A stretch of 64,000 bases of DNA from the NCBI GenBank assembly GCA_031213475.1, contig JARUPZ010000004.1, forward strand, positions 3,063,501 through 3,127,500, in the 5' to 3' direction. Positions 6,781 to 59,600 of this stretch are shown piece by piece (position 1 is the first letter of the stretch; each line of letters starts with the position of its first letter). Under the pieces are notes generated by a model, which saw only the letters and a program-made list of their open reading frames with translations, was not told the origin of the DNA and made no database searches. The DNA comes from Nereocystis luetkeana (lineage: Eukaryota; Sar; Phaeophyceae; Laminariales; Laminariaceae). A program made the translations under genes and the position numbers.

Positions 6781-6840
6781 CATAGATACCTGGTACTCGT
6801 AGTACGACAGCAGCTGAGTGTAGCTGAGTAGACGTCGAGT

Positions 6841-14382: not shown

Positions 14383-14421
<39 letters not shown>

Positions 14422-28539: not shown

Positions 28540-28678
28540 ATGGGGGGCACGAGGGATAAAGATGATGTAGTCATGGCTGATGGAGCAAACGATGCATCCA
28601 TGGGCACTAACGTCCCAGCAGCCTCGGAGAGCCGGGACGGTGACTGTGATGATGGTGAAGACCACGACTTTGGAGAAG
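28540..28678 (+). CDS. NOL6: NOL6 exon 1 (start codon)
   Basis: ATG in a good context (gagaaaATGG) opens an acidic Asp/Glu/Gly-rich leader, as in other Nrap N-termini. The donor GAAG|GTGAAG ends in phase 1, exactly what exon 2 needs. There is no conserved domain here, so it rests on phase and composition. A second donor 6 bases downstream has the same phase. Confidence 0.65.
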
Positions 28679-30626: not shown

Positions 30627-30660
<34 letters not shown>

Positions 30661-33600
30661 ACCTTGTACTAACTGTGTTGCATGTCACGCGACAGCAGTA
30701 AATACCAAGTACCCTTATTATTTCATACCAGTATGTTTCTGTAGCAGCAGGGCACGGGATCAACCCTCACCCCAGCCTTGGCCAAACGCTGGCGCTATTA
30801 ATAACGCATCGTAACGCCAACCGTGACCGCAGGAGGCGAAAATCGAAAAGAGCGGCAAATGGGATGCCGAACAGCCTCAGAAGAAGGCGGCGGAACCAAC
30901 CCCACCCCTGACCCCACTGTACCTTCTACTGTATCCTGAACCCTCCAGTCGACGCTTATCATCTACCATGTGCAAGAAAGTCCGCCTCACTTGCGGTTCT
31001 CAGCGGGATGCAGCCACCCTCCGTTCGACTCGCATGGCACACCTACCTCTCGTTCCGCTTCACGCTTTGGGTGCAAGCAATCAATGTCTGCTCAGGCCGG
31101 TGAAAGCCCGACGTGCTCCGTCCCGGCATTACAGGGATGGGAGGGTCTATGTTCACACGATACGACTACGGCCATGCATGGCATGAGTACACCCCCCTCA
31201 GCCCCACCCCTGGACTCTCTCCTACCCATGACTCCTACTGTAATGCTAACAACTTAGGAGATGAAGGGAGGGGCAGCAAGGATGGTGGGCCGCCTCAGAA
31301 GAGGGCGCGGGACGCGAAGTACGCGATACCCACGATGGAGGAGGCTTGTTTGTTGAGGGAGACGGAGGGAAAGCTGTTCGACGGTAACCTGCTGAGGCTT
31401 GAGGTGGAGGAGCTGCTGTCAGAGGTCAGGGTGGACCACGGGAAGAAGAGCGTCAAGGCTTTGGAGGTGAGGGAGGTTGATGTTCTCATCGCCAAACAAA
31501 ATAGCCCGTGAGTCACAGGACAGGCTCCTATAATTCTGGGGTGGGGCGCTACTGGGAGGCTGTTGTTTCCAAGTTAGCTCATCGCCAAGAAAAGTATTAT
31601 AGCCCTTGGCCACAGGGCAGGCTTCCAATAACTTTTGGAGTGGAAGGAGACGGAGTATCTCGCGGCAAAATAAAATAATACGTACCGGTACCTGGTTCAA
31701 AACAAGCAGTGCACATCATAAGTGATGCAAGTAAGTGTAACTCCTCAGGGAGCGTGCTCAGAAAGAGGCAGCGCATGTTAGCCGAACTGTTTTGTCGTCC
31801 CTCACGGGTCTCCTCAAAATGAGCAAATGAGCACTTACGCAACCAATACCCTTGGAATCCCATTTGTGAATTTAAAATGTACCAGGTATGTCTTTATTAA
31901 GTTATTGTACAGGGCTGGAGTTGGAAGTGAATGCAGGGAGCACGCGACAGAAAAAAAAAAACGAACCTCTACGGGTTTTTTTTAGAATCAGACACGGAGG
32001 GGTTATATACTGAAACCAAGTACATAAAAATCGAAAAAAAATAATTTTTTCTCGAGTCCTACAGAAATACCAACGCTCCGATTTTGTGTTTGTTGTTGGC
32101 CTTTCTATTACGGGGGAACATAATGAGTAGGACCTACGGTAAACACAAAAACCTACCAGGTATATATTTCCCTTTTTTTATTAGCAATATTTGGTCCTAT
32201 TTGCTATGGTCCCCCGTAATAGGAGTGTGGCTCCAGTTCCTCTCTCTTTTTTTCGTGCTCCTGGTTAACCCTTGTAGGACTGCGGTCCCATTTTGGGACG
32301 AATGACTTGAATTATGAGTGGTTTGTTCCCCAAACGGGACTGCTGTACTAAAATGGGTTAAGGTAGCTCTCGCCCCTGCGCGGGATTTCTCAATCCAATT
32401 TTCTTAGCGTCCCCCCAAAAGGGAGCCTTACGTTGTTATCATGCGAAGTACAGACAGTAATGGGCCCCCCTATAGTGCCTGTATCATTTATATGCGCCAG
32501 CCAGCGATACCGACACTATGAAGTATACATACAGTAGCGGCAACCGGCACTATGAAATACCACTCTGTCCCGTGATATAAACACCGTTTGGTTTAACAAT
32601 TAGTGTAAAACCGGTGTTTATATTATGGGACAGATTGGTATACATAGCGGCAACCGGCACTATGAATAGCACACAGCCACACTGGTTAATCCCATCTGTG
32701 CCAGGCAGTTACACCGGCACAATAGCGGATACCTGGTAGGCGGCACTATGGAGGGGCCCGCTACTGCTGTATCATGGTCACACCCTGAACTACAGACGAT
32801 AGTCCTTTTTTCTATTAATAGCTTCCTAACTCCTCAGAATTGGAGAATAAATAAGTTTGGGCAAATGCCAAAATCAGGTATACCCAATCCGTTTGAGCCA
32901 AAATCAGGTACATATTAAAACCAAGTGGAAAACGCGCGCCACGAGCGGTGCTGTCCATAAAAGTCGGGTAAAAAAATGAAGCGTGCCACATGGCCTCCAA
33001 AATCTAAACCGAGGGAGGGCAGACGCATACGGAGAGAAACAACAGAGTGTACGTATGGTCTCTCTGATTGGTTCAAAGTTGGCCAAAATCAGTTGAAAGC
33101 TAGACAGAGTAGACGCAAACAGGTATACCCTGGCCTTTTCGAGCCAAAATCAGTTACAATGTCAGCCTGGCCGATAGCAGGGCTCCTGGGGTGTGTTTTG
33201 TACTTGTTTTAGAATGTAACTGATTTTCGCCGAAAAGTGGCCAGGTATACCTGATTTTGGCAAAAACCCTTACAAGTATATGTACGACACCTCAAATATC
33301 CCCCCCTCCCTCCTCCCCCTCCCCTCCCTCCCCTCTTCCGGTTCATTCGGGGGGCGTTTTTTGTCATTCCCCTGTTCTGCCACGTCAGGAATGGCTGCAT
33401 GTGCTGAAAGACACCCTGGAAGAGCTACCGCCTGCCACGGTGACCGAAGAAACCGTCGGGATGAAGGGCATCCGACTGGCCAACCACGTGCCCGGGAAAC
33501 CCGTGGCGCTTGACTTTCGTCCTCCTGAGGTGTGTTTCCATTTTGTTAAGGCTATAGATTCGTATAGTACAGCTTGAGCATTCCCGATGCTTCCGTGAAA

Positions 33601-36600
33601 TTTCCTTGGGGGTGTCGGTCTCACTTACTAACCCTTTCGACTTGAGTACATACATTTTCATCTCAGATTTTTGTTTTTTTGTTTTTTGTTGTCTTTTTTC
33701 TCTTATTTTTCCGGTCTTGCTTGTGTTGTTGTGTTCTCGTACCCGGTACGCTGACATTTCACGTGCTTGACACTTGAATTTGCGATTTATTTTTTATTTT
33801 TGGTCTTCCTCTGTCTCACAGTCTGTGACCACATAATCAGTATCTCTCTAGGATAGGGAATCAGGACGGACACTGGGTGTACTGATGAAGCCGGGTAGAA
33901 AGGACGATTTAATGTGAAGACAACAACAACAACAGCAACAACAACAACAACAGTAGTAAGTAGGCAAAATTAGACGCAAATCGACGAGGGAAGAAGTGCT
34001 GATCTCTTCTCGGGATGAAAACGCAAGACACGTATATATCGTAGGGGGGAGGGGGGAAACGAACCTACTTACTGCTGTAGTTTCCCCCAGATCTGAGTTA
34101 CAAATATTATGGGGGACCATATTAAATAGGACCTACGGTACACACGAACAAACTATATGTTTCGCTATTTTTACTAACAACATTTGGTCCTATTTACTAT
34201 GGCCCCCCGTAATAGCAATGAGAAGGAGCAAAAAGGGGGAAGAGAATAATTGACTGGAACAAATAATAATATACTGATATATATAAACTTCTCACGTTCT
34301 TCTTTGTCTTTCTTTCACTTGACTGTACGCACCTGCTTCGCGCTCAGCAAGTCTACGACAAATAATCGTGGCATCTACGATCTTTGCTTTCTTTGCGTTC
34401 TTCGGTTTCTTTGCGTGCTTGCTTGTCGTGGGACACTTTTTTTTTCGGAAAAGTAATCGCTTTCTCTGCATTCTTTGCTTTCTCTGCGTTCTTTGCTTTT
34501 TTTGCTCTCTCACAATAACCTCAAGATGAAAGCCCCCACAATATATCGAAGTCAACAAAAATGCCACACAAACTGCAAGATGAAAATCCCACACTAAATT
34601 CAAGATATACACACATACATCTGGCTACCCACAACACCCCCTCCGAACACCCCCCATCCCCCCCCCTCAAAAAAAAAACTTGTTTGTTGTGTACTGGTGT
34701 GTGCAGGAGGGTGGGTTCGATGTGGCCGGGAGTTTTTTGCTGAGGTCCCTGGTGAAGCCTAGCCTGAACGTCGACCTAGCCCTGCGCATGCCTTCGGGGT
34801 GCATCGTTCCGAGAGATTCGTTGAACTATCGCTATCTGGACAAGAGGGCTCTGTACGCAGGGCATTTGGCAGCAGCGGCTATGGAACCTGATAGCTCGCT
34901 GGGAAAGATGGTGGACAAAGTCGAGGTGAGATATTCGTCTTATGTAATCTATTTCACGCGTTGGCCAGATCATCGATTTTCTCTGGATGATCTCGATTAT
35001 GTATTCCCGATGTGTAGGATCTAGCTCATGTTGTTGGGCTATATCTTGCAGGCAAGACTTGATCCTCATCTGTAGGCTACAGCTCATGTTTTGATCTAGA
35101 TCATACAGGGCAGATCCATTCGTTATCGGTGAGATTTTTAGCTCGTGTTGTAGGGTGGGAGCCGTATGATCTGCATTATCTGATACATGCTTTCTGGGTT
35201 GGATCTGTACTCTACAGGTCCTGTACATCATGTCATAACGGCAGCGTAGGATCTAGATGATCTATAGATGATCTGTCTGTGAGTCATCTGCCCGATGTGT
35301 GAACCCTTGTCCCACTGCAAGATTTATCCAACTCTACTCTAGTTCCGAGTAAGGTTTACCAGAAATATTGGTACGGTTTCGAAGGGGTTATTGAGGGGGG
35401 GGGGGAGAAAGGAAGGGAAGAGGGACGGGGGAGAATGTGGAGAGGCGGGCTGGGAAGAAGGGAGAGAGTGGGGGTGGGGAGGGGGGGAGGGGGGAGGGAA
35501 GCGAGGGAGGGAGGGGGGTGGGGGGGGGGCGAGGGGGATTGAGATGGAAGGAAGGGAGAAGAGAAAAGAGGGGGGGCGGGGGGGGGGGGGGGGGGGGGGC
35601 GGAAGGAAGGGAGAAGGGGAGAGAGGGAGAGAAAGGGCGGGGGCTAGGGGTGAGGAGGATATGTATTAGCGGCAGTGGTTTGAAATTCGAGGGTGCATGT
35701 TATATTTTGCGTCTTATATGGTGCTTGTCTGTGGCGATTCCCTTCCCTTGCTCACACGCATGTTTCAGCAGGCTTCCTCTTGTATAGCACGCAAATCGCA
35801 ACCAGCTCTTATCTGATCCCTCCCTCCCTCCCTCCCTCCCTCCCCCCCTCCCTGCCTGCCTGCCTGCCTTTCTTGTTTGTGGCCTAATCCCGCCTGCCGC
35901 CTATTTACAAACCCCTCACATGCAATGCCCGGTTGATTTCAGCTGTCGTACTTCTTGGGGGACCCTCGAAAGCCTGTCGTTCTCCTGTACCCTACCCTCA
36001 CAGTGGGAAAGAAAGGCAAGAAGGTTAAGGTCAAGCCGCAGGAAGGGTTTGTAGTGCGGCTGTTGCCTTGCTGTGACGGGGATGTCATGGCGCCGACTAG
36101 GCTCGCTCCGGAAAGGAACAACGTCAGGACCAGGTAGGTTACGTTGCACGCATCAAAGAAGCGTATAATCTGTACCAGGTACAAGGTATAACCCGGGACA
36201 TATTTGCTGGGTTGGATCTGTAGCACACAGATCCTGCACAATATCTTATAACGGCAGGCTGGTGTCTAGATGATTTGCTGTACACAATTAGATAGATAGA
36301 TCGTGAGCAATCAGACCGACGTGTGAAGCGCTGCCATGGCGCCGGCTAGGCTTGCTCCTAGAAGAAACAGAGACGGGTGCAGGGGCTGATGACCGGTATC
36401 TCGTGACTGCTGCACGTAGGTCTATAATGTTTGTAATGGACGGATGCACTACGTACTGTTACGGGGGGCCATAGTTAACAGGACCAAATAGTGTTAGTAA
36501 AAATGGTTAAACATATAGTTTTGTATGTATACCATAGGTCCTGTTAACTATGGTCCCCCGTAATACATGTAGATATTATACTCAGAGAAGACGATAATGG

Positions 36601-39600
36601 AGATCTCGATACGATAACGACCGGTAGTGACTGATAGTGACTCATAGCGACTGCGCCGGTAAATAGACAACTCAGCTCGTCACGATTTCCATACGTACGT
36701 TCATGAAGACATTTCGTTCAGTATCAGCAGAGAGACAAACACGGGGGTGCCAGAGGATGTTGGGCTAAAAAGCAAGGCTTTACACGGTCACGGTGCAGCA
36801 CCGAACCGCTGGGTGTGTTTCTTCTGCTTTGCAGAATCCTACCTACGGTGCATACAGTGACATGCGAGTTTTAGTATTTATTTGATAGCAGTACGATGGG
36901 TTGCGGTGCGGTGTGTGTGTGTGTGTTTTTTTTCGAGAATCCTACGGTGTACTTTGGTGCGGTGCGCTTTCCTATGTTTACGGCAAGATCATACGGTGCG
37001 GTGCAGTTCGGTGAAGCCGTACGGAGCAACAACCGCACCGTAAGAACTAGCCGCGCGGTTAAAGGTCTTGCAAGGTAGTCGATGGAGGGCAAAGCGCGTT
37101 CGGCACGATACAATGAAATTCCGACATCGACACGACGATGTACCGAAAAATTCGATGTTTGGAACCTTTCACATATCGGACAGATGATCTGCAGATCATC
37201 GATTCCAGATCATCGATTCCCTCAGTTCATGATCTAGATCTTTCAGGACAGATACATGCATTCTCATATGTATGAGATGTATGATCTGTATGATCTGTGT
37301 GATCTAGCTCATGGTGGTGGGTGGGAGCCGTTTAGTCTGCATGATCTACCACATGTTTCCTGGGTTGGATCTGTAGTGTACAGATAGATAGATCCTGCAC
37401 AACATATCACAACGGCAGGGTAGGATCTACATGATCTATCTGTAGATGATCTATCTGATACGTCCGATGTTGTCCTTTCTTTCAATACCATATCCAACAT
37501 AGCAGTGGTGGTACCAGACATAAATTTACATGAGTCCAGTTGCTGAAGGCGAGTTGCTGAACATGCTATTGAATGCCTGGTATGTTGCCGCGGCTGTTTC
37601 TTGTGTTTTTGTGTTATTGTGGTGTATTATATCAGGGCGGTGCTGGTGGAGCTCGCTGGCATGGACGGTGGGGACGCGGTCGGGGCGGGACGGGGAGAGG
37701 AACTGGTCTCCCGGCTGCCGGGCACGCCTCACTACAACAGCGCCATCTTGGAAGACATGTGCATGAAGGACCATCTCGCCGCGCTGCACGGGATCTGTGG
37801 AGATTCTGAGGCGTTTCGCGATGCGGTCATCCTCGGCAAGGTTCGTTTTCAATTTTTTCAACGTTCCGATAACTTTCGATTATTCCGATGTTTTCGATAC
37901 TTTGAATATCATGTAAGGCCGTCTCTGGCCGCACTGCACGGGATCTGCGGAGATCTTGAGGCGTTTCGCGATGCCACCACCGTCCCCGGTAAGGTTTGTT
38001 ACGATAATTGATAAAAACCGATTTTCGTATTTCGATGTTTGGGTTGCTTTCGATATTGCGATAGTTGGATCTTGTGAGGCGTTTCGCGATGCAGTCGTCC
38101 TCGGCAAGGTTCGTGTCGTTTTTTGCTTATATTGTAACGTACGTGTCAGGTAACTGGGGTATTTTTATACTTGCTTCGTACGTGTATTTTGATATTATTA
38201 TGGTTCGATGGTTCGATGTTACAATGGTGACACGAGCTGTAAAACTAGATTTCGAGCAACGAGCGGCGTCTATTGACGACGTACCGAGTAGCAATTTTGA
38301 TAGCACGGCCCTCGCTAGCACATCCCTTGATGGCGTAGCACTTACTAGCATAGCCCTTGATGGCGTAGCACTTACTAGCATAGCCCTTGATAGCATAGCG
38401 CTTGATGGCGTAGCCCTTGACAGCATAGCGCTTGATGGCATAGCCCTTGACAGCATAGCCCTTGGTGGCACAGCTCGTGATAGCATAGCCTTTGAAAGCA
38501 CCGCCCTTGGTAGCATAGCCCTTGACAGCATATAGACCTTGATAGCGCAGCCCGTGATGGTATAGCCTTTGCTAGCATAGCCCTTGATAGCTCACCCTTC
38601 AATAGCGTTGCCCGGTGTTAATCCTGCGAAGGTGTGGCTGGGCCAGCACGGGATGAGGACGTCTCACGATTCTCTGGGGGGTTACGGCTGGTCCATGCTT
38701 GTCCTACATCTGTCGCAAGCACGGAGGGTGAACTCGAGAATGGCCGCGCTGAGTATCTTCCAGGTGGTGCTCAAGTTCATCGCCGACGGGGGGCTATCAA
38801 AGTGAGTAACCCCGCCTACAACACGCCTTGCTTGTTGTATTCTTCCGAGTTGATGTGGATACCAGGTCCTATTCCCTAGCTCGTACCGCCTCATTTTCAC
38901 TATAACCCTTCAGGAGGCCGGCCATCTACTGCTGTAGTCCCCTCGGCAGGGTGGGTCGCTCTGAGAATTTTATGTCGTTGTTGTTCCCCGAGAGTGTATC
39001 ACGGGGGGTCATAGTAAATAGGACCTATGGTACACACAAAAACCTATATATTTCCCTTTTTTTTTACCAACGATATTTGGTTTTTGGCCCCATTAACTAT
39101 GGTTCCCCGTGATATTAATAGTAAGGCCACACAAGCCACCCTCTCTCGGTGTGTCTCCACACCCAAAACCTGGTCACAAGAGATCTGCCTCCTGCGGGAC
39201 TACCGCCCCACACGACTGCGCGGACAATGTTATCAAGCAACGCCCCTTTTCGAGCGACCTGGGTGAAACCGATTGCGCGACCGCCGCCCGAGCTCGGTGT
39301 AACGAAGGCAGCCAGGACCGGCAACGTTTTTCTCCGAAGATGAAAGAAGTAACCCACCAACAGAACACAAGTTGACGACAGTTGCTAATGCGTCCTGCTG
39401 CGCAAGTTTCCTGGCGACACCTGTTTATATGTCTTGAGGTCCCCTACTATTTAATAAGTGCAGGCGAGGTTTATCACCGCCGAGGGGATGGCAAAGTGAG
39501 GATCCTGCCTAGAAAACGCCTTCTTGGTTGTGGATGTATTGTATGATCCTGCTAAATGCAGGTAAAGTTCATGGTCGACGGGGGGATGTCAAAGTGATAA

Positions 39601-42600
39601 GCTCGCCTACTACGGGGGACCATAGTAAATAGGACCAAATATTGTTAATTAAAATAGCGAAATATAAAGGTTTTTGTGTGTACCGTAGGTCCTGTTTACT
39701 ATGGTCCCCCGTAGAAGTAGAACACGCCTTGTGGGCTGTGGTTGTATGATACGGTCCTACTAAATGTAGGTGAGGTTCATTGCCGAGGGGGGGCTGTCAA
39801 AGTCAGAGCCCCGCCCCAAAACCGCAATGGTGGTTGTGGTTACATGCTAGAAAATGCCTTTGTTCGTTGCGGTTACGTTGTACTTCGTATGATCCTACTA
39901 AATGTAAGTGAACTTAACAGCCGAACCGGGGATGTCAAAGTGATAACCGCCTCAATAGAACACGCCTTGCTCGTTGTATAAAATACAATCGGATTGTTTT
40001 TCACGTTCCCGTTCTGTTTTCTCACGACCCCACCAAAAAATAGGTGGACAGGGAGGGATGATGCTTTACGAACCTGCGAAACGTGTGCGTGTGCCTTCAC
40101 TATTTTCGCGAGACAGAAACAAAAATAATAGTTGGGAGCTCTCGTGTTGTCACCCGCGTGCGAGCATCGTCAGGACCTAGAAGCACGGGTAGCATCACGT
40201 TGCGCCCGTCCTCCACGACTCCTTGCGTTGTCACTCGGAATCCGTTTTTTTCTGACATCCACCGATCACGCAGTGTCAGCTGCTGTAATCTTCACGTTCC
40301 CCCACATCAATTTTCATGTCTGGAGTCCCAAGAAGCCTAAGCAGGCTGTAATTTATGTTTATATATATATAATGTTCTCTGAGATACCGAGCTTGTTCCT
40401 GGTTGGGTAGCTACTATTACGGGGGATCATAGTTAATAGGACCTACGGTACACACAAAAAACTTTATATTTCCCTACTTTTACTAACAATATTTGGTCCT
40501 GTTTACTATGGTGCCCCGTAGTACTGTGGGTCTGATTATATTCGCCAATAGTCGGGTATACTCGTATGTGCCCAGGGTACTCCCAGGGTGAATGAGTACC
40601 CTACCAAGCATACCCTTGGAAGCATAAGCTTACACGCATCAGACAGATCATGCACAGATCATCTACAGATCATTCCATAGGTCATTATATAGACCTTTCA
40701 GGACAGATATATCATCCCTGGTCTGTAGGGTCCACAGCTCATGTTGCCGGCTGGGAGCCGTATGAGCTGCTGCTATTTTCAGCAGTGGAACTGCGGTGAG
40801 CTTTTAAGCTTTATTTTCACCAATCCGCCGGAGGATTAAAAAAGGGCAAAAGCTAATTTCAGGATACAACATTTATTTGTTTTTATGGTGCTTTGTCGAG
40901 CAGACCGCTCGCAATTTTGACCAACTCCGCGCCAAGGGGCACCGCTCGCATTACTTCCACATTACAGTGGTCGTGTTGCTGCGACACACATCCCGGCTAA
41001 TTTTTAGCGTGTAAAACAAGACGTTTTCTTCTGTGGTGCTTCTGTCGAGCAGAAGGTGCCTCACGGTGGACACGCCTAGCGGTGGCGCTGCCGGAGCTGG
41101 GCGAGGCCTGAGCCTGGAAGAAGAGAAGGCCTTCAAGGACGCTTTTCCCGCCGTCATGGTCGACACCGCCCTGGGTTTCAACATCTTCGGTAGGCGTTTT
41201 TTATTCTATTGTTATCTTCGTTTCGTTTCGGTTTCGGTTTCGGTTTCTTGTGCGTTTTTATCTGGGGTTAGCCGTCATGGTCGGCGCCGCCCTGGGTTTC
41301 AACGTTATCGTTACGAATGCACCTGATCGGCGTTATTTATTGCCAGGTACCTGGTTGATTCATTACTACGAGCTTGTTCGAGGAACAAGCCTAACACATC
41401 ACCTTCGGGCCCTCCAACAATGAATACGTTGAATTTGCTCGACAACGAACATACATATCCACATGGCCGCACATGACCGCACCAACAAGAGGGACGCATC
41501 GGTGAAAATGCTTTGTAAATCGGAGCTGTACACTTCGTGAGATACGAACAATTGTTGGAACCTTGAGATTTTACTTGAGCAGTCGAGGAAACCAACAAAT
41601 GAACAAATTCCGTGATTTTAATCGTATATCAGTGTATTTTTGCCATGTTTTGGTCACCATACGACGACGTTTATTGCTTGACTCGTGATATTACCGAACT
41701 AGCACGTTTCGTGATGGGCTTGGTTTATATTCGATGTGCTTCAAAAACTAGAGCATTTCAATCGGCAAAGTAGACCTCTACTTTGAGTCTGTTTTCGGTT
41801 TCTAATTTTGGGCCTATTTTAGACCCAAACTGCAACACCTTCAGCATATCGGTCGCTATACCTTCAGTAGGATTGCGTCAGGAAAGAGCGACGGTGTACA
41901 ACTGTCCTTTCCGCGTCTAGCGCATTGATCAAGGCCACTTTTCTAGTTTTGACGCATCACGTACTCGAAACAAAACTGAAGACATGATACCCTCCCCCTT
42001 CCTCCATTCCTCCTCCCCGCCCCTTTCTCCCCCCTCCCGTGCTCCTCCTCCTCCTCCCCCGCACGCCACCTCCTCCTCCTCCTCTTCCCCTCCTCCCCTG
42101 CTTTCTCTGCCACCCAATGTGCGCCAAAAATGCGCTGTTCTCTGCGAAAAAACAAAACAAAGCGCGTCTGAGTTCTTCCGCGATTTCTGAGCTAGAGATG
42201 ACAGCCAAGGTGTCGATTTTGGTGCTGCAAGGTCGCCCAGGCGTGGCATTCCGGCGGCTGTTTATGACGCGCTCCACGCTCTGGAGGAAGTGCGACGCCT
42301 TCGTCCAGGTATGAGGTGGGGGGCATGGGGGGGGGGAAGGGGATTTGCTCAGGTCATGCATGGCTGTAATCATATACCCATAGACCCTCGCTTCCCTTTC
42401 GAGACGGAGCACCGTTCCTACTCCTAGTAGAGACACCTCAAATATTTGGGCGCTATATACGTTGTTTCCTCGTATTACCTAGATTCGTTTTGCCTGTGGT
42501 CGGCAGGGAGGAGGGGGGTGTCCTCATGCCATGCATGGCCGTACTCGTATGACGATAGACCTTCGCATCCCTCCAATGCCGGGGCGGGGGGGTTGTAAGA

Positions 42601-45600
42601 CGTACAGTAGTAACGTTTTTTTTCGATGTGGAAACCCTGTCTGCCGGCAACGCCGACAGACCGCTCTCAAACAAGGGTATGTAAATATAAACGAAAAACG
42701 AGCCATTGTGCTCATGTTTTGGTCATTTTGAATTTTCTGGCCGAAAGTGCGACACCTTCGGGGCTTGTAATACATAGTTGTAGTGTCCTATGTACGTGGT
42801 AATGAGTACCAGGTAGCAGGTACCAGGTAACGCTTTTTTTCGCGGTGGAAACCCCTGGTTTTTATGACGCTATCCATGCTCTGAAAGAAGTGTGACGTCT
42901 TTGCGCAGACAACCGGTGGGGGGCGGGGGGGGTGGCACCCATCTCTTGATCGCCTTAGTCACTCAACCATTGACCAGGCATCCTTTCAGAGACGGAGCAC
43001 GGCGCGGGAGGGGGGAGGCTTGTAGTACGTAGTAACGCCTTTTTTACTGTGGTAAGCGCTGGCTTTTTATTGCGCGCACCATGCGCTGTAGGAAGTGCGA
43101 CGCCTTTGTGCAGGCAACCGAAGGGGGGGGGGGTCGGGTGGCGTATTTATTTGTTGCTTCCCTTAGTCATTTGACCATTGACCACGCATTCCTTTCGAGA
43201 CGGATCACCGTCACTACTCCTAGTAGAGACACCTCCATCATTTGGGCGCCCATTACTTTGTTTCCATATATTACATAAGAAACGTTTTGCTAATCTTATC
43301 CCCTTCCTGTTTGGCCGCCTGTGGCCACCATCTATCTCTTAGGATAGCGATCGTTCTCTCTCTGTTATCTAGTGTATCAGACTCCTCCATGTCACATTCT
43401 TCTATTTCCCTCATCCCCTCTTCTAACACACGCCGTTCCTCCTTGTGCATTCCACATTTTCCTACTATGTGAGTTCCACTCTCTGTTGCTTTGTCACACG
43501 GGCACATCTGTGCATGTACTTCCTCCTTCGGGCTACTGGTACACCTCTTTCTTCTTTCTGGCAGATTCAGGTCACCTACACAAGATAACAGTTTCAGCGT
43601 TTCCGCGAGTTCCACTGGGCCGTGCAAATACGTTTTCATTCCTATCCCTTAGCTTAAGCCCCCGTCAATCTAAGGATTTCTCAGATTTCATCTTGTTTCT
43701 TAGCGCTAGCCTTTCGCTTTTTTCTATCCTTTCTTCTATTTCTGTCTTGCACCTCCCAAAACAATATGCGGACATCATTTCTTCTTGGTTTTCTTCTATA
43801 TCCTTCCATAATTTCTCAACTACGCTATCCCAGCTCTATCAACTATGGCGGGGGGGGGGGGTTAGTAGGAAAGCCTTTTTTTCGGTCTGGAAAACCCTGT
43901 ACTGGTACACGATATTTCTAAAGATATTCTTATTTTTGGCAAAGTGTACCCCACACTATAATAGTTTGAGTATTGGAACAATCCCAGTAGCATGTTTACT
44001 TTCTTCTTGTTTGTGCAAGAGTCAGGCCAAACATTATCGACGCCAAGTCGTGCACTGCAGTGACCTGCCTATATTCGATGATAATGTTGCACATTAGCTA
44101 ATTTCCCTGAAGTCTAGCTGGTGACCACAACTATAAAAATCGGGCTCTTCACGGATCATGACCGAACCCGCGGGTCGGATCAGAAAGTTTTGAAATATCA
44201 CGGATCGGGTCAAGTCAGGAGGTTTTCAGACTCTCACGAGTCAGGTCGGGTCATCCTTACCCGACCCGGCCTGACCCGACCTGACCCGACCCGACCCGAC
44301 CCGACCTACTGGCGAGGTTTGGCGCGACCCGTAAACAGTCCCTAAAGAAACTACCTAACCAATGCTTCCCTCCCACTCCTCTGCCAGGTCCCGCTCACGC
44401 CAGCGGAGTTTCAAAGAATTGGAGGCGGTAACGCCAAGAAGGGGAAAGCCGGCGGGGGCAGGACCGAAGAAGCGCTCAGGCAGGCAGATTTACAAGCGAG
44501 GGAGGAAAGGGAGGGTCGGGAAGGGGGCGAGGAGGGGGGGGGGGAGGGGGAGGAAGAGGGTCTGCTGGACAGGCCCCTTTGGAGCTATGTTTCCGACCGA
44601 ATAACGAGGCTTTTAACGGAGGGGTTGGGGGACCGTTGCGTGCTGGTGAGGCCGTTGTGCGGCGCCGCGGGAGAGGACGGGGAAGACTTCCGAGGTAAGG
44701 AAGAGGAGCCGTTATTTTGCTACCGACAGATTGATTTGTAACTGTATCCGACGGCAGAAACTGTAACCGACGATGAACGTTGTGACCCACAGCGTGATTT
44801 GCGGCCGGCAGTATGTTTTGTAACCGACAGCGTGATTTTTTAATCCAACGACGTGGCCTGTAACTGTAGCCGACCGCGTGATGTGGAACAGACGACGCGA
44901 TGTATAAGCGGTCATCTGACATGTAGCCGACAACGCGATGTATTGCCGGCAGCATGGCTTGTAACCGACGGCGTGATATGTGACCGAGAGCGTGATATGT
45001 AACTGACGGCGTGATCTGTAACCGACAGCGTGATCTGTAACCGACAGCGATGATTTGCAGCCGACGGCGTGATGTGCGTTGTCAGCGGCCGACCTTGGAT
45101 ACGTACCCACATCACACTAAGAGATCACTTGACCCACGTCACAGAAATAGATAGCTTGCTGCGGGACTATGCACCGTCGCACGCGATAGTTCGTGTAGTG
45201 TTACAAGCGGACGCTCGCTACGATACAGGTTGAGCTTTTATTTTCTGCCAAACTATTTCTGACTGCCTTGATAATAGGCTTGTTAACCCCATTAGGACTG
45301 CAGTTCCGATGTGGGGGCTATCCAGTCAAATTCTAAGTAGTTTGTTTGCCCCCAAAACGGGACTGCAGTCCCAAAAGGGTTGATGGCTCTGAGAATTTCA
45401 CCCATTTTTTTCTTGTGTTTGTTTTTCACTATTTTTCGATGTATGTACCTGTTACTTCATGGGGTTGCACTTTCGTTTTTCTCAGAGTTTGTTTTTGGGA
45501 GGGGGGGGTGGGATATACCTGTAGAGCTCCTTAACCCTTTTAGTACATGCTGCAGTCCGGTTTGGAGGACACAGCTCTCAAGTGCTTATTAATAGTAGTT

Positions 45601-47617: not shown

Positions 47618-47658
<41 letters not shown>

Positions 47659-50600
47659 CGTCCGTGTGTCTGTCTGTCTGTCCACCCGCCTGCCTGCCTG
47701 CCTGCCTACTGTTACCCTTCCTTCGTCTGCCACGCAGGTTTAAGGACGGGAGCATTGTGGAGGCGGTGGTGTGGAAGGGGAAAGGGGCACAAAGGCACCG
47801 CGTTGTCGAGCAGGCGAGTCCGTTTTTCATGTTTGTTTTTTTTTACCGTGTATGTTTCCGTTTTTTTTACGTTTTCTGTATTCTATTTATTGTTCTTGTT
47901 GCTAAGTTCCAATACATGATTTTTCTATTTTCTATTTTCTATATCCGAAAATCCGTTGTTCAGGTTCACTTCTCAATTTTCATATTTCAATGTTTTTTTA
48001 CTGGTTTTCGACAATTGACTTCCGATTTTCAATTTCCACTTTTTGACTTTCGCTTACGGAATGATTTTGGATTTTCAATTTCCATTTTTCTACTTTCTGG
48101 CCATCCCTTTTTGAACAGGTGGCGCGACACGTGCTAGCGCGGCATGACCCTTCGAGATGCGCGGAGAGTTCGAAGCGGTCCAAGCAGAACCAACACGCCG
48201 TCCGGTTCCGAGGAAACGAGCTATTGGGGATGGTGGCGGTCGGCGGATTAGAGGTGCGGCGTAGCGATGATTGCCGATTGGTCGGGTTGTCGGTGGTACT
48301 GGATAAAGTACCGTTGAGTGTGATTAATCTAGCCGTTGTATGACGATCGGCGGATTAGCGGTGCGGCGCAACTGTTGTGGTTGTCGGTGGCACTGACTAA
48401 TTGGATAATGGGGGTATTGGGTTACCAGTTTGTTAGCTAGCTGTTGTTGCTTTTTCCGTTCTGGGCATGGGTCGTGCAGTGCAGCCAAAGTCATTTCGCG
48501 GTCGTTTATGGCCGTTGATGACGAACGGTTGGGTTGAACTAGTTCCCCGTTAGCTCTTGGGCGTAGTTATTAAGTTAGCTATTAATAGTTAGCAGTTATT
48601 TTTTTTTAACGTTCTGGTGACGGGTGGTGCCGTACAGCCAGTCATTTCGCGGCCGTTTTGTGACACTCGATAAAGTACCGTTGAGTTTGAGTTATCTTCA
48701 TCTACCCGTTAGCTTTTGGGCATGGTATACTAGGATGGTAGCGGTCGGCGAAATAGAGGTGAGGCGTTACTTCGATTGTCGATGGCACTGGATACATTAC
48801 CGTTGGGTTCGACGTATCTATAGCCGTTGTGGACAAATTGTGCAGCGTAACTATGGTTGTAGGTTGTCGGTTGTCGTTGAATAACTGGGCTGGTTAGTTA
48901 GCTAGCCGTTATTTTTTTTTTACTCGCTGGGGACTGATTGTGCGTCCAATGTTCAATTCGCGGCGGTTTTGTGGCACTCGTTATAGTACCGTTGGGTTTG
49001 AGCGAGCTAACGGGTGGCGTTCATATACTCCGGTGACACCGCACAAGTCTATCGCGCAGCCGTTGGGTTTGAGCTATCTAACCGTCAGCTTTTGGGGGGG
49101 GTGGCGGTCGAGGGATTGAACGTGCAGTATAACTGTGATTATTGTTTTGTGGGGAAGCGGCACTGGATAAAATACCGTCCGGTGTTGAGCCACTTCGCTA
49201 GCCGTTGGCTTTAATTACTTTCTGGTGACTCGTGGCGGTACAGCCGATGTCCGTTTCGCGGCCGTTTTTTCGGGACTCGATTAACCCTTTTAGAACCGCA
49301 GTCCCGTTTTGGGGACAAACTACTTGAACTTTGACTGGTTTGTCCCCTAGACGGGACTGCAGACATAAAAGGGTTGAGTACTGTCGGGTTTGAGCGGGAT
49401 GGTGAGAGATAGCCGTCGGTTTTATTACTTGCTGGTGGCTATTACGGGGGACCATAGTTAATAGGACCAAATATTGTTAGTAAAAACGTTTAAATATATA
49501 GGTTTTAATGTATACCATAGGTCCTATGAACTATGGCCCCCCGTAATAGGGGTGGTAGTATGGCGGCCGCCGGCAGATTTCGAGGTGCGGCTTGTTGCCG
49601 GTGTGCTCTGCGTGTTCCATGTTTTTTGTTGCGCGTTTCTCGTGGTGGCTTGAAGTTTGTGCTGTTGTTGTTGATGTTGATGATGGTGTGGTGTTCTGTG
49701 TTGATGTTGATGTTGTTGTTGTTTTGCGTGCTGTGGACAGGAGGACGCGGCGGAGGACGACGACTTGACGAGGTCGGCCCTGAAGGCGCTCGAAAAGCTT
49801 ATGGAGAAGGCCAAGGCGGTCGAGGGCATGCCACTCAGGTGCTGGGTTGTTGTTGCTGTTGGATTGCTGTTGGATTGGGTTGGTGGTGGAAAGGTTTGGA
49901 TTGGTGTTAATATTTATTAGGCTGCGTTGGACTGGGGTTGGTCGTCATTTGTCCATCCGGTATAAACTACAGTACCTATTACGGGGGGGCATGGTAAATA
50001 GGACCTACAGTACACACAAAAACCTATATATTTACCTGTTTTCACTAACAATATTTGGTCCTATTTACCGTGGTCCCTCGTAATAGATACTGGTGGTCGC
50101 TTAAAGGTAGGCCCAAATTTTCCCCACCTCGGACGGACAGATCATGATCTGTCTGATCTGTCAACAGATAAATCATCTAGTTCCTCACCTGCCGCTGTGA
50201 GAGTTTGTGCAGGATCTGCTCAGTACAGATCATCCAACCCAGAAAACATGTACCAGTGTAACAATTCAAGCAGATTATACGGTTCCCTCCAGTCAGCACG
50301 AACTTCGAGTGTAGATGAATCCTACCGTAGAGGTCAGAGCTGCTCCGGGAAACCTACCAAGGTTATCCAGAAGTGGGAATCGATGATTTGTGCGAGGTGT
50401 GGGCGGCAATATAGGGACCGTTTAGAGCTTAATAGGAAGACGGAACGGTTCTTATGTTGGCAGCAAAGCGTAGCCCACGCCCGTCCCTGTGTGTGCTCCT
50501 GTTCGAATTCCTGTTTATGTTTCCATGTTTCGTCTTTTGTTCTTATTCCTGTTCCTGATTATCCTCGTCGTTCTGGTTTGTCCCTCTTGTTTTTTCTGCT

Positions 50601-53600
50601 CTTGCTTTTTTTTCTCTTCTTTTTTCCCCCCTTTTCTTTGCTATTTTTTTTTTTGTTCTTCCCCCCTCTGCTCTGGGGTTTCCGCTCTTCTCGTCCGTTT
50701 AGTCCCTCCTCTCCTTGGTCTTGCAGTAGTATTCTCATTGACGTGCTTTCTCGATCCTTTTTGTTGTTTTTGTTGTTGTTGTTGTTGTTCCTCTTCTTGC
50801 TTCTGTTGTGTCTCGTATTCCTCATCTTGGGCGTACCCCTGGACTTGTTCTTGTTACTCTCCTCCCTCTTGTCGGCCAGGGTGGAGTCGCTGCAGGCATC
50901 GTCGCCCTTGCTGAGGTACACCTCGCTTCTACCCCCAGTCCCTCACCCTTTGGCCACGAGTCCCGGAGAGGCAGCAGTCGTGTTCCCCGCGCAATCTACC
51001 AGGATCACATCTCAGGTACATTACGATACGTGATCGCTTTGTTTTTTTTCACACGTGAGCTGTAAGATCGAGGATTTCATCGAAACTCATCTTTCCAAAA
51101 GCTGTGTATGACATGATACGCCCATCGATCGCGCGTATTACGTAGCACTCTGTCCAAAAATTTAGTAACCCTTGGATTTAATATTAATATACCAGGTACA
51201 GGCGTTGCTTATGGACAGAGTGGTATATATTAATACGGGCGATCGCATTATCACACACAGCTTGCAAAGATGAGTTTCGACGAAATCCTCGATTTGACAG
51301 CTGTTTTTTTTTTCAATTTTACATATATATATACCTGGTGTATATTAATTCCGGGTTTTGTATGATCTGTTGCAGCATGTATACTACTGGCTGTAATCTG
51401 ACGGCGAATATAAGCCCCGTTTTATTTCTGATATATACCGGTAACTCTCAAGCGGAGCTTGCCTTTCCGGTCAGAGTATACTCCTTAGCAAGGATAATAT
51501 AATATGACAGCCGTGAAACTTAGGGGGGTATGGGAGGGTGTGCATGTGCATGTCATATTCCGCGACAGCAGTTGAGGAAAAAATGGTCGAGCTGTGTGTG
51601 AGAGCCGGCAAGATTTCACGACCAGAAATATTTAGTAACAACCAATCGGTACGCACTGTAGGTGCCGTTAGCCAACTATCTGGCTTTAGTCGGCAAGTCG
51701 GCTGCCGAAGCCACCTGATGGTCAGCCGACTTGTCGATTGTCAGGTGAGCGAGGGGGGGAGGGCGTAAATCAGCCCACCTCCCCGGTCAAGGAGGACCCA
51801 CCCAAAAGAGAACCAATAAATCCCGCAAGCATCAATCTTATGGAAACCCAATACCCGTCATAAGTCCGATAGTGGGCACCTCCGGGAAACGACTACTAGC
51901 TGCAGTATTTGGTGACTTGGAGTCGTGCCGACTCCCAGCTCTAGAAATTGGGAGTTTTGTTTTTTTTCTTGCAGGTATAAGGCGTGCACAGCACGAAAGC
52001 AAGGACTTGTCAATCCTTTTAGTGCTGTAGTCCCGTTTTGGGTACAAAACACTCAATTTCTAAGTAGTTTGTCCCCCAAAGGGCCCAAAGGGGGCTGCAG
52101 TCCTAACGGTCCCAAAAGGGTTTGAGACGTTTGGAAAGATCGACTACAGATCATCTACAGATCATTCCCACTTCATGACCTACCTGGTAGATTTTGTTTC
52201 AGGGCAGATAGATCTATTCCTGATTTGTATGATCTGTATGATCTAGCTCATGTTACCGGGTCGGACCCGTATAGTCAGCATCGTCTATATGGAGCACATG
52301 CTTCCTGAGTTGGATCTGTAATAGATTATACAGATACTGCGCAACATGTGATAGTGGCAGGTTAGGATCTACTGTATATAATGTGTATGTAGATTATCTA
52401 TCTGTAGATTATCTATCTGCAGGTGATCCATCTGTAGACGATCTATGTGTAGATGATTTTTCTGTAGATGATTTTTCTGTAGATGATCTATCTGTAGATG
52501 ATATATCTGTAGATGATATATCTGTAGATGATCTATATGTAGATGATCTATGTGTAGATTATCTATCTGTAGATTACCTGTCTGTAGATTATCTGTCTGT
52601 AGATTATCTGTCTGTAGATGATCTATCTGTAGATGATCTAGATGACCTGTCCGATGCGTGAAAATTTTGGCTTAATGTTTGCAACTAAGTATAATAGAAC
52701 ATGTGGAATGCTGAAACTATTAATAGTGTAGGACACGCACCCTGCCTCACTTGAGCATCATAAGAACTTGAGGCTGGCCAAAGACAACCGTTTCTTAAGC
52801 GGAGTCGCGTGTAGGTGTTTTGCGGGGGGGGAAAGGGGGGTTGCCAGTATCATATTGAAGTCTTTCATACGTAGTATCATAATACCGCACCGCAAAAAAC
52901 ATACCAGATATGTATCAAGACACCAAAAAACTCGTGATGACCGATGCAATGGTGGTCTTACGACAGTGCTGCAGTAACGTACCGGAGACGCCGGAAAAGT
53001 TGTGCTGACTGGCTAGATGATGCGCTGTGACAGGTGGAGCCGCTGGACGTTGTGGTACGGCTGGAGAGCTCGAGCAAGTGGCCTGACGACTTGGAGGCGG
53101 TGCGCAGTATGGGGACGGCATTCCTCATCCGCCTGGCGCAGTGTCTTGAGAAGCAGGTACACTCAGCGGTCATCTATAGTGCCCTCGAAGGTCAATTACA
53201 CGCTCAAAAATGTCACCCTCACGCTCAACGGTCAGTTGTATGGTCAACGGTCGTTTCGCGCTTTTCGGTAAGGACAGAGGAGCACGGAGACGGCTTGCGT
53301 CGTCCGCCTGGCGCAGTGGTCTGAAGAAGCAGGTACAGGTACTGCACGTATCTTATCTACGACGCACGTTTTTGTGTGTACTGGTTCCAGGACCCCCACC
53401 TCCCCTCCGTCTCGATTTGGATGCGTGGTCAATGATCGAATGACTAAGGCAGACGCCAAATGTGTACCCCTCCTCCCCCCTCCCCCTCGCGGTCGATAAC
53501 GCCTCGTCTCCCATATCTCATATCTTGGCTGTCATACCTTCACCATATGTAATACCAGGTACCTGGTATATTGTCCCTCATGTATGCCAGGTACCTGGTA

Positions 53601-56600
53601 TGGTGTATCATGCCATCATATGTCTTGTCCCTCATCGCTCATTTCTTAAATATCTCGAAACAATACACCTGGTACCTTGGGACGAAGTATCATCTCTCGT
53701 ATTCCATATCTCACCGAGTACGCTCAGCACTTTGTTCGGCACTATAATATGGTTGAAACACGCTTGTGTATACTGCGTTCGATGAAAATCCACGAGCAGT
53801 GGGAATGCCGAACCCTATGCGCGAAAAAAAAAATGAAGGCACGCTCCGGGGGGGAGAAGGGACGACCCCTACCTGTGACCACGGCTTGTCCAGACGATCG
53901 CTGAGGGTGGAACCTCCTACCGGCACGAGTTAAGCTGGAAAGTAAAAGGGGCGATGGGAAAAAAAAAACGGTATCTCGCCTCTCATATCTCATCAATCAC
54001 ATTCTGTCATCATCCTCGTATGCATCTAATATCGGTATCTTACCTCTCATATCTTATCAACCATGTTGTTATTGTGTCCTGATCGCCGCGCTGATTGGTC
54101 AGTACAAGCTGAGGTGCGTCGTGGGGAGGCGTTTCGTTGACGTCATCACCGCCGGCTACTGCTTCCGGCTCAGGATTGGCGGAGATCGCGAGCTGGCGCT
54201 GTTGGGGAACGACAAGGTGGGGGGTGGGGGGTGTGCACGTGTGTGCGTCAGTGGGGCTGCGAGTTAGTCGGCTGACTATTGTAATAGGCCGCCGACTGCT
54301 ACAATAAGCCGCCGACTAGTGTAATAAAGCCGCCGACTATTTTTATTCATCATTAGTTGGCTAGCTAGGTACTATAGTTATATAGTAGTTGCGTCCGGTT
54401 ATTTGCTGACGTCGGCGTATCTGTACCCGACTTGGCACAATCGAGACTCGAAGCGTGTCGTTTATTGGTTGAATTGATTCGGTTATTAGTAATTGGCATG
54501 CCTTATAGAACCTCGAGTGGTTGGATCGTTTTTTCAGCGCTCGATGTCTCCAGAACTAAGGGAAGGGAAGGTTAAGACAAACTACACATGGGCATATTTG
54601 GAAGGGCCCCCAAAACTGTTTTTTTTTTGCCGAAAACCCGCGATTCTTTACTCAACGGGACTGTCAAAAACAGTCCATTTTGCCAGTTCTGAGGACAACA
54701 TGATTTTCATGAAAAACCTTCAAAGATGCGTTATTTTGTTTTCTGGCCCCGGTTCTGACAAACAGGCTTTTTTTTACCCTCCAGAGAAAACTGATTGGCT
54801 GCTCCAAAAATTAAACGAGGACTCTCGAGCTCTCGAGGAACGGGAAGCTATTCCTGAAAGCTCACGGAGAACTCCGGGGAGCAATCCGAGGAGTCTACCG
54901 GTGTTTTTGGCTGTCCCCCCGAGTAAATCGCGTATATTGGGCCTAAAAACCCGGTTCTGAGAGCCCAGAAATAATTTCCCATAATATTTGGTCTAAGGTT
55001 GACAATACCGAACAATCTCGCGGTGTTTTCGGAAAAATCTGGTTAGAGAGAGAGAGAGAGAGCCTCCCGGAAATATGGTGTTCGCCTTGCCAGAAAACGA
55101 GTGCTGAAGAGGCGTTCTACGATAGAGGTTCACCCTAAAAAAATTCTGAGTCTCCTCATTTAAGGAGCTCCATACCTCGCCCGAAAACTGACTTAAGCAA
55201 AGATCGAAATGCATGGTGGCGAATAATCTCATGGCCCAAGTCTACGAAACGTTTTTTTTTTCGAAGTCAATATTGACATCCCGACGATTCTGGGTCAAGG
55301 AACCCCGTCTTTCAGAAACAAAATAGCGGAAATGTGCTACCGTTATCGTAGAACGGGTCTGAAAAACGATCGCACTCCTCGATGTTCGTTACGGTAGGGA
55401 TACGGCTAGGCACTGGCACAGTATGTACTGGCAGTATTACGGGGGACCATAGTAAATAGGACCTACGGTGCACACCAAAAACCTACCAGGTATATATTTA
55501 CCTATTTTTATTAACAATATTCGGCCCCAATTACTGTGGTTTCCCGTAGTAGTAATGTACTGGTTGACCCGGGCAGTATATTTCGTCGGAAAGAAATCAA
55601 CTTACGTGTGCGTCCAAGAAAAACGACATCTTGGACAGTAGCACGGACCTACCAAAGGCGTTTCGGAGAGTGGAGAGGAGAGACGGTATACTGCTGCAAT
55701 CCGGTGTAGTTATTAATTTTGACGGCAGTACAATCGCTGCTCACTAAGTCCGCCAGTGCCCTCCCCTCCTTTTACGGTTCCGCTGTATCCCGGAATAGAA
55801 AGTTGTTGGCATATGAATATTAATATTCAGTGTAAACGCTTACCTGGTATTATTTTTCGGGACAGTGCCGTTAAGCCCAGCCACCTCGCAACCCCATCTG
55901 CCATATGTACCTGTGCGATAATTTCGGTGCGATGATCGTATTTTGTGCGGTCATCTCATCAAATATCGCGTGTTTTACCATTTCCGTGCGATCGCAAAAA
56001 AAAAATGTTGTCGTGCGATCGCCATTTTCGTGCGATAATGACTTTCGTCCGATTGTCATTTCTCATCGCCGTGCGATCGTCGTTTTTTCAGTGCCGCCCT
56101 CTGTGTGCATTTCGTCATCTCAGTGCGGTCGCCGTTTTCATCCGATTCTCACTCCCGTGCGGTTTTCATTTTCGTGTGGTGGTCTCTTTTGCGATTGCGC
56201 TTCTGCGTGATAATTTTCTCCATTCCTCGATTTCCTTGTTATCATGTTGGTGAGATATTCCTTTTCTTCCGTCCGGTCGTCTTTGTGCGGTTAGAATTTC
56301 CGTCGATAACCGTTTCCGCCACTGCTGTACGATACGTACAAAAATTGTTTGTTTTCAAGCCTGCTGGCTTTGTCGCGTGTGTGGCTTGCGGTTATACATG
56401 CATCAGGTATGCTGCGGTAGCCCCTTAACCCTTTTAGGACCCCAGTCCCGTTTTGGGGGACAAACTACTTACAATTTGAGTGCTTTGTCCCCACATATGG
56501 GGCTGCGGTGCTCAAAGGGTTAAATGCGCAAGCTCGAGGAAGTAGTTCACACCGCGCACAGAAAATCGATCCCGAATTCATGCTATAAATCTTACGCTCT

Positions 56601-59600
56601 AAACATTTTTAGGGCACACATATTTCTGATCTGAGTGGATCCTTCACGTTGCTCGACGTGAGCCGTATTACACGCATGATGTATACTACTGCTGTAGGAC
56701 AAGTTTCCTGGGGTGGGACTGTACGGCACAAATCCTACACAAAATATACTCTAGGAGCGGCAGCTTAATGTCTACAGTAGATAATGTAGATCATTAATCT
56801 ATCTGATCTGTGAACTATTCACACGGCTCACATATTATTAGTAGTAACCCCCCTCCCCTGCCTGGTCGGTGAAAAACCCGACATGCTCCTTACGGGCATT
56901 GTAGGAATGCTAGGGTATATGCTCATACGACTACGGCCATGCATGAGATCGAGTACATATCTCCTATCGAGGACCCCCCCCCCCCCCCCCCCCCCCCACC
57001 GCCTGTTCCTTACAACGCCTCCAGAGTGACGGCCCGGAGCGGCTGGCGCTGAGGGAGTCCGCCCTCTTGGCCACTCCTCACCACTCCAGCGTGCACGGCC
57101 TGCACCTGCAGAAGCCGGCGTTCGGGCTTACCGTCAGGGCCGTGACCCGGTGGCTCGAGGAGCATATGATGTCCGACCACTTGCGGTAAGACGCTTCTCG
57201 TCTGCGTCCTTTTTTTTGTAGTTTTTTTTTGTTCTTCTTGTTTTGATCGATTTTTTGCTCAAAAACAATGGTTGTGTTTGTAAACCAAGGTACCGTTCAT
57301 GTCACGGGTCGATAATTCAAATATTCAGCTGTAAAAGCTAGCCTGCGTGTTTCTTTTACCGTTTTAATTACGTGTAGTGCCGCTTTCGTTTGCGGTAATC
57401 GTAAGTTATTCTTGTTTTTTTTGTAGTATAATTGTGTGCGATTCACGGTTTATTTCATTGTGCTGTTCCACTTACGTGCCGTTCGCTACGTGACGCGAAG
57501 AGCACGTATTGCCCGAGCACCTGCGGCGAGGCGCCTATATTTATACTGACGCTTGAACCGCTTTCCTGCTACAAAAAGGATCCAACTCACAGTCAATTGA
57601 AACCACCGCCCCTCTCTCCCGCTGCCCCTTCCCCTTCCCCCCTCCCCCTCCCCCCTCCCAACCCCGTTTCACAATCTCTACTTTTTGTTATTTTTTCCTC
57701 CAGCGTCGAAGTCGTGGAACTGCTCGTAGCGAGTCTGTTCTCAGACGAAGCGCCCTTAGCACCCCCATCGACAGCGCTAGCCGGCTTCCTTCGGTTCTTG
57801 CTGCTGCTCGCCGCCCATGACTGGAACGCGACTCCGCTGGTGGCGGACCCTCAAGGGGAGCTGAACGCCGCTGATAAGGCGGCGTTGGGGGAGGCGTTCT
57901 CTCGATCGAGGGACAGGGGTGAGCGAGGCGAAGCGAGAGGAAATTCGGCCTGACACACCGCCCAAAAGAAAAATGCAGAGCGCCCTGAACGTTCGTGGGA
58001 TTATGTTATTTGAGGAGGGGGTCCTCGGGAATGGTAATTTCGATGGGGAATCAAGAGGGGCAGATGCATCCTACGATAGAGATGTACCTACTTCTCTCTG
58101 AGTCTCTATATGGAGGCGTTATACGATAGAGGTTCACCCTGATTCATTCTGAGGCTCCTCACTTGAGGAGCTCCATACCTCACCCCGAAACTCACTTCAG
58201 CAAAAATCAAATCGCATCCCGGCGAATAATCCCATGGCCTAAGTATACAATTACCTCCTTTTTCGAAACAAAGTTGGCATTCCGACAACTTTGGGTTAAG
58301 GAGCCCGGCCACTCAGAAACCATTTCAGCGGAAATGTGCTACCTCTATCGTAGAACGCGTCTATACCCCACCCATAGGCCCGCCCATGACCTGACCTTGA
58401 TAGTCATACAAAGTGTAACCCGATAAAGAAAGCCACGTCCTTCGTATTTAAAAAAAAATAGAGATAAACGCGGAAACAAAATGGGTAAATTCGTCAGCGC
58501 CGCCCCTATCAGTCGAGATTAGTTTGCCCAAAAAGTGCTACCACCCCTCTGACGACACGCCTCGGTAGCGCCACTGATAGGGCGGCGTTGGGGAGGAGGC
58601 GTTTTCTGTCATCGAGGGTCAGGGGGGAGCGTGGGGGTTGGTTCGGTGTACCGCCTGTCCCCTGCGACGACATGCTTTCCTTCTATTCATACTGCTTCCT
58701 ACAGACCCTGGCAGTGGAAGCCCGACGTATTTCGTACGTGATCAGCGGGGTGCGAAACGAACCACTGCTGTAATATATACGGTACCACACGGGGGATGAA
58801 GATAACACCCCCCCCCCCTAGGAGGAATTTCCGAGCTGACTTTCTCGACAAAGGGGTGCGTGCAAACGCCGAGAGATGCGCCTTTAGAATTTATCTCGAC
58901 GATGCCTTTTGCCAACGCCTTAAAAACCGGCTCCGAAAATCAGCCCAGGGAACGTGTTTTGTTGCCTTGCGTGTTTGTACGGAACTAACCTGGTAACAAC
59001 TACATTGCCCTAAGAACGCGAGGAGGGATGAATAAGCGACGTGTGGATACCAGAAAACCACCCCCCCCCCTTTCCTTCGTCGGTATGCATTCCTCTCTAC
59101 AGACCCTGATGGCGGGAGCGCCATGTACGTCGTGACACCCTACGCCCGCGAGGTGGGATGGGCGTCTTCCTGGACCAGTCCTCGCCCCGAGCGGCCTGTG
59201 CTGGGAAGATTGGTCGCTCTGGCCAAGGCGTCTGCGGAGACATTGGTACAGTGGCTTTCGGGGGAGGGGAAGAATGGGAAAAGCCCCGGGGGCTGGAAAA
59301 ACGCCTTCAGGTGAGAAGGTCGTGGTGGTCGCCACGGTTTTGGTAGAGATTCGCAAGGGGGTGGCTTTCGAGGAGGGGGGGGGGGGGGGGCGTGTTCGTT
59401 TGATGATTGCCTTCGTCGTTTGGCCAAATGACCATGCATAGAACAATATTATTTGGACGCAAACCGGCCACCGCGGTATTTTGTTGTACGAGAATCAGTC
59501 ACCTCGGAAAGACACGGTACCTCTGGGACGGAAACCGGTCACTGCGGTATATGGTATTGTACGGGAATAAGTTATACCAGGGAACAGCCCGGACCGATTG

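Follow-up and report, generated by a model that had tools for sequence, protein, structure and literature searches.

The length of introns is usually ascribed to transposons and small insertions. A potato RdRp gene is described as carrying a duplication across an exon–intron boundary that crossed an acceptor, changed the transcript and gave a new intron (PMC4974935), and a review outlines how introns could be gained by tandem genomic duplication, a model that involves AGGT segments (PMC3443670). In brown algae, whole 72-base leucine-rich repeat (LRR) exons are reported to be shuffled in ROCO genes (PMC11378527). Here we describe the gene NOL6 of the brown alga Nereocystis luetkeana, in which the 3′ ends of exons are repeatedly copied, together with their splice donors, into the intron that follows. 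The gene lies in a window (the whole stretch of DNA analysed) of 64,000 nucleotides on contig JARUPZ010000004.1 (C4:3063501-3127500), in an assembly of 465 Mb and 1987 contigs. Copying of exon edges into the gene's own introns is real and is confirmed by the comparisons below; the copies are local, direct and decayed in a near-neutral manner. Our preferred reading, to which we give a probability of about 80%, is that tandem duplication across donors has occurred repeatedly, that the surplus exon edge has been absorbed into the intron each time and has decayed neutrally, and that NOL6 is a local hot spot of direct duplication.

NOL6 occupies 28540..61405 on the forward strand, the orientation also of its copies listed below, with 22 exons from E1 (28540-28678) to E22 (61027-61405), and is identified by its open spliced frame, its Nrap domains and its homologues. 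Spliced together, E2-E22 give 1257 stop-free residues, or 1304 once E1 is added. All introns are GT-AG except intron 12, whose GC donor at 47814 (GAGCAG/GCGAGT) is the sole non-GT donor in the model. The protein matches six Nrap Pfam domains and can be aligned along its length with the NOL6 labelled Undpi1, which we take to be that of Undaria; the identity between the two is 81% in the search and 88% in the alignment. The closest relatives among nine hits are Undpi1, a pair of proteins whose organism is not given and two from Ectocarpus; the next are those of Chrysoparadoxa (41% identity) and Tribonema (40%), a ranking that by itself makes a brown-algal host very probable. A start of E9 at 42192 was rejected, as it places stops in frame; with the start at 42163 the frame is open, and the end of E18 then lies one base earlier. 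The gene model shows no new intron; existing introns are only lengthened.

The last 60 bases of each exon were compared with the exon's own intron, with 1000 shuffles of that intron and with the other introns. Eight exon ends, those of E5, E6, E7, E8, E9, E13, E16 and E19, match their own intron in the same orientation with scores of 37-68. At a score of at least 37 this makes 8 of the 20 donors of E2-E21, or 8 of 21 counting E1, for which the same 60-base test found no copy in its own intron. For each of the eight, 0 of 1000 shuffles reach the actual score, the shuffle maximum being 32, and against the 19 other introns the best score of an exon end is 29, so that none of the 380 comparisons reaches 30. 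Two further donors are marginal, E18 (24; shuffle maximum 23) and E20 (26; reached by 6 of 1000 shuffles). With 100 shuffles, inverted exon ends show an excess only for E5 (21 versus 20), and exon ends compared with the upstream intron only for E14 (24 versus 23). An earlier note on this DNA had claimed that NOL6 exon edges are duplicated with their junctions in one to four copies; both parts of that claim hold, the edges standing clear of shuffled intron and E7 having the largest number of copies, four. The same note counted nine of 22 exons. The pattern stands, and the count is now 10 of 22 with a copied edge of some kind, E5 (copy at 36322) being absent from the note's list if the two numberings agree.

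The eight exons account for 15 donor copies, four of E7, three of E13, two each of E6 and E9 and one each of E5, E8, E16 and E19. The copies align through the junction, with 20-99 bases of exon end and mostly the position of the GT and some tens of intron bases, and the copied junctions lie 107-1138 bases beyond the real donor. E5, ending at 36133, is copied at 36322..36456 (identities of 50/60 in the exon part and 35/49 in the intron part, an order kept below). E6 (end 37840) has a first copy at 37901..38040 (75/87, 36/45), with its GT at +153 in frame, and a second at 38066..38181 (38/43, 44/55). The copies of E7 (end 38801) lie at 39469..39531 (20/27, 30/35), 39541..39613 (38/49, 17/20), 39769..39837 (29/33, 27/35) and 39911..39979 (20/29, 34/38), and that of E8 (end 41189) at 41271..41364 (38/40, 28/36). 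E9 (end 42308) is copied at 42783..42932 (78/99, 19/24), with its intron side near a dispersed family, and again 205 bases further on, at 43049..43148 (52/64, 23/35), in tandem with a period of 205. The first bases of intron 9, directly behind the donor (42312-42397), are part of a dispersed repeat family with at least 42 other scored matches in the genome, so only the exon part is firm for the E9 copies. E13 (end 48253) is copied at 48341..48400 (17/20, 35/40), 48733..48802 (23/26, 37/44) and 49059..49177 (43/56, 41/52), E16 (end 53156) at 53281..53337 (42/51, 5/5) and E19 (end 57918) at 58543..58634 (67/77, 8/10). A marginal copy of E18 (end 57185) at 57471..57534, with an alignment score of 43, stands outside the eight and is left out of the 15, as are donor-side hits of E2, E9 and E13 that contain intron sequence only and another, weak hit of E13, its fourth. 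From one junction to the next, ten of the 15 spacings measure 98-262 bases; the other five measure 363-706, and in at least two of these (E7 and E19) a dispersed element is interposed.

Copies of acceptors are scarcer and less convincing. They number 2 of 21, with a further one from E8, for which the intron side alone is copied (40852..40904; 42/51). The E2 acceptor, from intron -60 to exon +56, is copied at 30767..30896 in intron 1, and that of E20 at 58675..58755 in intron 19. The first 60 exon bases score 29 against the upstream intron for E2 (0 of 1000 shuffles) and 26 for E20 (3 of 1000). Acceptor edges score similarly against other introns (at least 30 once and at least 26 five times in 380 comparisons), and the two copies are for this reason weaker evidence; their main support is longer alignments running through the junction. 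Acceptor-side hits of E7, to a 15-base minisatellite, and of E13, confined to the intron, were left uncounted. Donors and acceptors compare as 9 of 20 with 2 of 20 (Fisher p 0.03), where the nine include the marginal E18.

The copies look neutral in their decay, mostly regardless of coding. Copy and exon differ at 131 of 762 aligned exon positions, and the differences fall nearly evenly over the three codon positions (39/254, 41/254 and 51/254). That the surplus edge of a boundary duplication decays and lengthens the intron, as previously proposed, agrees with copies that lie within introns, cross the junction and have diverged. Copies of E5, E9 (the second) and E16 carry a homologue-like residue that is absent from the present exon and common to all four close homologues, and the first E9 copy and the E19 copy share with their exon residues found in none of the four. 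These sites suggest that the duplications may be of different ages, although they are a handful and each is open to chance. At 71 further residue differences only the exon matches a homologue, as expected from decay of the copy; at six the copy equals or surpasses the exon in its agreement with some homologues.

Local duplication is not confined to exon edges. We searched 60-base tiles for a direct match of at least 32 inside the next kilobase, both on the full sequence and with dispersed and short tandem repeats masked. After masking, 88 of 983 NOL6 tiles (9.0%) have such a match; the corresponding counts are 4 of 925 (0.4%) for the window's first 28 kb and 14 of 2190 (0.6%) across 30 kinesin loci from elsewhere in the genome, and inverted matches number 12, 1 and 7, respectively. 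The unmasked direct counts are 145/1406, 26/1184 and 74/3107. NOL6 has 14-20 times the density of local direct duplication seen in the kinesin loci or the first 28 kb, and the exon-edge copies are one visible portion of a gene-wide duplication hot spot. Duplicates within introns were found for 196 of 1388 intron tiles. They cluster in introns 2, 6, 7, 9, 13, 16 and 20, and in intron 13 they involve 62 of 97 tiles. Intron 1 contains a tandem duplication at 29194-29535 with 91% identity and a period of 167. At 17 places in the window, for example at 36456-36565, 39607-39716 and 49439-49548, there is a dispersed element about 110 bases long (TATTACGGGGGACCATAG...), which is inserted within some of the duplication arrays.

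We propose that local direct duplications span a donor and so would carry exon end, GT and intron start together. The upstream donor would remain intact and be transcribed first, which is presumably why it would win and leave the mRNA unchanged; the second exon edge would turn intronic and decay, and the intron would lengthen with the protein untouched. A duplication across an acceptor would instead leave an earlier, competing acceptor and add sequence to the mRNA, so that few would persist, probably the simplest reason for the small number of acceptor copies. The acceptor duplication in potato, which is described as having changed the transcript, fits this reasoning (PMC4974935); the kinesin sample, where each kind of copy occurs once, has no bearing on it. 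We infer the tandem origin of the copies from their arrangement, and the regular period of the E9 array supports it.

Several points weigh against this account. The case for a tandem origin is built on the direction, locality and spacing of the copies, and the use of the upstream donors is predicted from the reading frame and the homologues. Third codon positions are somewhat more changed than first and second positions. If neutral copies sit beside a constrained exon, the intron part should be clearly more diverged than the exon part; summed over the 15 copies, the exon part is 83% identical (630/761) and the intron part 80% (419/523), although most gaps are in the intron part and poorly matching columns are trimmed by local alignment. 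Finally, the 30 kinesin loci, with a single donor copy and a single acceptor copy, do not repeat the donor excess of NOL6.

In a more specific version of the proposal, DNA at the 5′ splice sites of NOL6 would be especially prone to tandem duplication and splicing would act as a one-way valve, donor duplications being silent and acceptor ones purged, so that introns would grow from their 5′ ends. The distribution of in-intron duplicates, mostly donor-side, supports it: 16-22% of tiles have a duplicate in each of the first three fifths of the introns and 5-9% in each of the last two. This bias is carried by about seven introns, and we regard the version as doubtful. Somewhat less probable still, and on the whole unlikely, is that a donor-seeking process is the main explanation, with DNA at 5′ splice sites breaking or being re-replicated more often, for example through transcription or R-loops. 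The donor-side position of the duplicates and the more frequent hits on donors than on acceptors would favour such a process, but an excess of this size over intron-only pairs can arise from slower loss of exon-anchored pairs alone. In simulations at 17% divergence, 95-99% of exon-anchored pairs are detectable compared with 36-57% of intron-intron pairs, and at 22% divergence 89-92% compared with 10-21%. Exon-anchored pairs outlast the others because selection holds one side, and similarity is lost about half as fast. Slower loss could therefore place donors (8/20) above intron tiles (196/1388), two measures that differ in kind, without any donor-seeking mechanism, and we rejected donor targeting as the main reading for this reason. 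Slower loss leaves the acceptor shortage unexplained, since acceptor edges are equally held; selection on splicing can explain it.

The earlier note had extended growth by tandem duplication across exon–intron boundaries to introns of this genome generally. We examined 62 exons of two gene families, the 30 best kinesin matches followed by 12 SNF2 and 20 more kinesin matches picked by hand; they represent 50 of the 132 kinesin matches and 12 of the 55 SNF2 matches listed, are not a random sample and in some cases come from one gene. Each kinesin locus comprised the exon and 1.5 kb on either side, and four (L050, L062, L065 and L068) were retained despite stops inside the match. Kinesin donors were called with a simple scoring scheme, and a count free of the scheme also gives 1 of 30. 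Donor copies of the same layout are found for 2 of the 62 exons, compared with 8 of 21 donors in NOL6 (Fisher p 1.7e-4, a descriptive value only, as NOL6 was chosen for the pattern). Among the first 30 kinesin exons a donor copy is seen once (L063) and an acceptor copy once (L057), the 20 further exons (12 SNF2, 8 kinesin) have one donor copy (L071), and none was found in the last twelve kinesin exons. The L063 copy, from exon -44 to intron +59, is built like those of NOL6, as is that of L071. The acceptor copy of L057 is clear, 385-492 bases upstream; the flagging rule missed it, and it is counted since the longer alignment crosses the acceptor. The match of L053 was flagged and stops short of crossing the junction, and L072, with a score of 36, is a GCTT microsatellite and is uncounted; otherwise the control would stand at 3/62. 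An inverted match scoring 35 is present in the kinesin locus L039. The edge-copying process is thus not peculiar to NOL6, whereas its frequency is. Growth of introns across the genome at a NOL6-like rate draws on the copies of the same build in L063, L071 and L057, but the low donor count elsewhere and a duplication density in the kinesin loci of about 1/14 that of NOL6 make it improbable, and the wider claim of the note is not supported by the sampled genes.

Another reading, in line with the note's suggestion of competing or decoy splice sites, is that selection maintains the copies as decoys or alternative donors. GT is retained in 11 of the 15 copies, several of them in a fair donor context, but about 10.3 would be expected at 17% divergence; retention at this neutral level gives no sign of donor upkeep, and ten of the 11 extensions shift the frame or meet a stop. 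We therefore rejected selected decoy donors, and regard the idea as very improbable. The remaining extension belongs to the first E6 copy, whose donor AAG/GTTTGT at +153 (37841-37993) would add 51 codons in frame and free of stops. It is a possible alternative donor, a candidate from its reading frame and motif.

That ordinary dispersed repeats or introner-like elements merely resemble exon edges is already largely refuted and the least credible alternative, for although 23% of 28-64 kb is masked as repeats and the start of intron 9 is such a repeat, the E6 edge with its copies occurs at a single locus genome-wide (the one edge covered by the genome look-up, so that this part of the note's expectation holds for E6), exon ends lack matches of 30 or more in other introns (0 of 380), and no exonic bases are masked as dispersed in the sampled loci. 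Whole-exon tandem duplication was rejected as well, because none of the self-BLAST alignments within the window covers an entire exon, and an origin from spliced RNA because the copies continue into intron sequence.

Outside NOL6, the window contains a perfect CGGTT array of 35.6 copies at 12362-12539 and minus-strand open frames with coding-like codon use at 4342-14948 (for example 9948-11153), perhaps another gene. Elsewhere in the assembly, a Cpn60 gene, which we take to be plastid groEL, is matched at equal score on 70 small contigs, and many plastid fragments probably remain in the assembly.

In NOL6, duplication across the splice donor, another route by which introns lengthen, has left many relics. 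These remain recognizable for longer than duplicates within introns because protein selection holds one side, and exon edges could for that reason serve as probes of local duplication history in other genomes. The imbalance between donors and acceptors is a testable consequence of splice-site choice. Repeated donor-edge copies within one gene were not found described in the titles and abstract openings listed by searches of an open-licence library. Among described systems, the introners, as their report presents them, share with the NOL6 copies a repeated sequence tied to introns; they are dispersed and create introns, whereas each NOL6 exon has local copies of its own (PMC9860276). Introners have many similar copies in different genes; the E6 edge has one locus, and the NOL6 donors have no matches of 30 or more in other introns of the gene. 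Shuffling of ROCO LRR exons is likewise intragenic duplication in brown algae, but those exons, as described, move whole and stay coding, whereas the NOL6 copies are partial edges that decay (PMC11378527). The potato RdRp case is closer, a local direct duplication over a splice junction with the copy adjoining its source; in the account given, it involves an acceptor, happened once and made a new intron, whereas in NOL6 donors of many exons are involved and introns are only lengthened (PMC4974935). In the tandem genomic duplication model as reviewed, a segment with a splice signal is tandemly duplicated, as in NOL6, but there exonic sequence becomes a new intron, and NOL6 has made none (PMC3443670). 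The NOL6 pattern is a variant of this known tandem genomic duplication, from which it differs in its donor side, its repetition over many exons and its outcome, the growth of introns.

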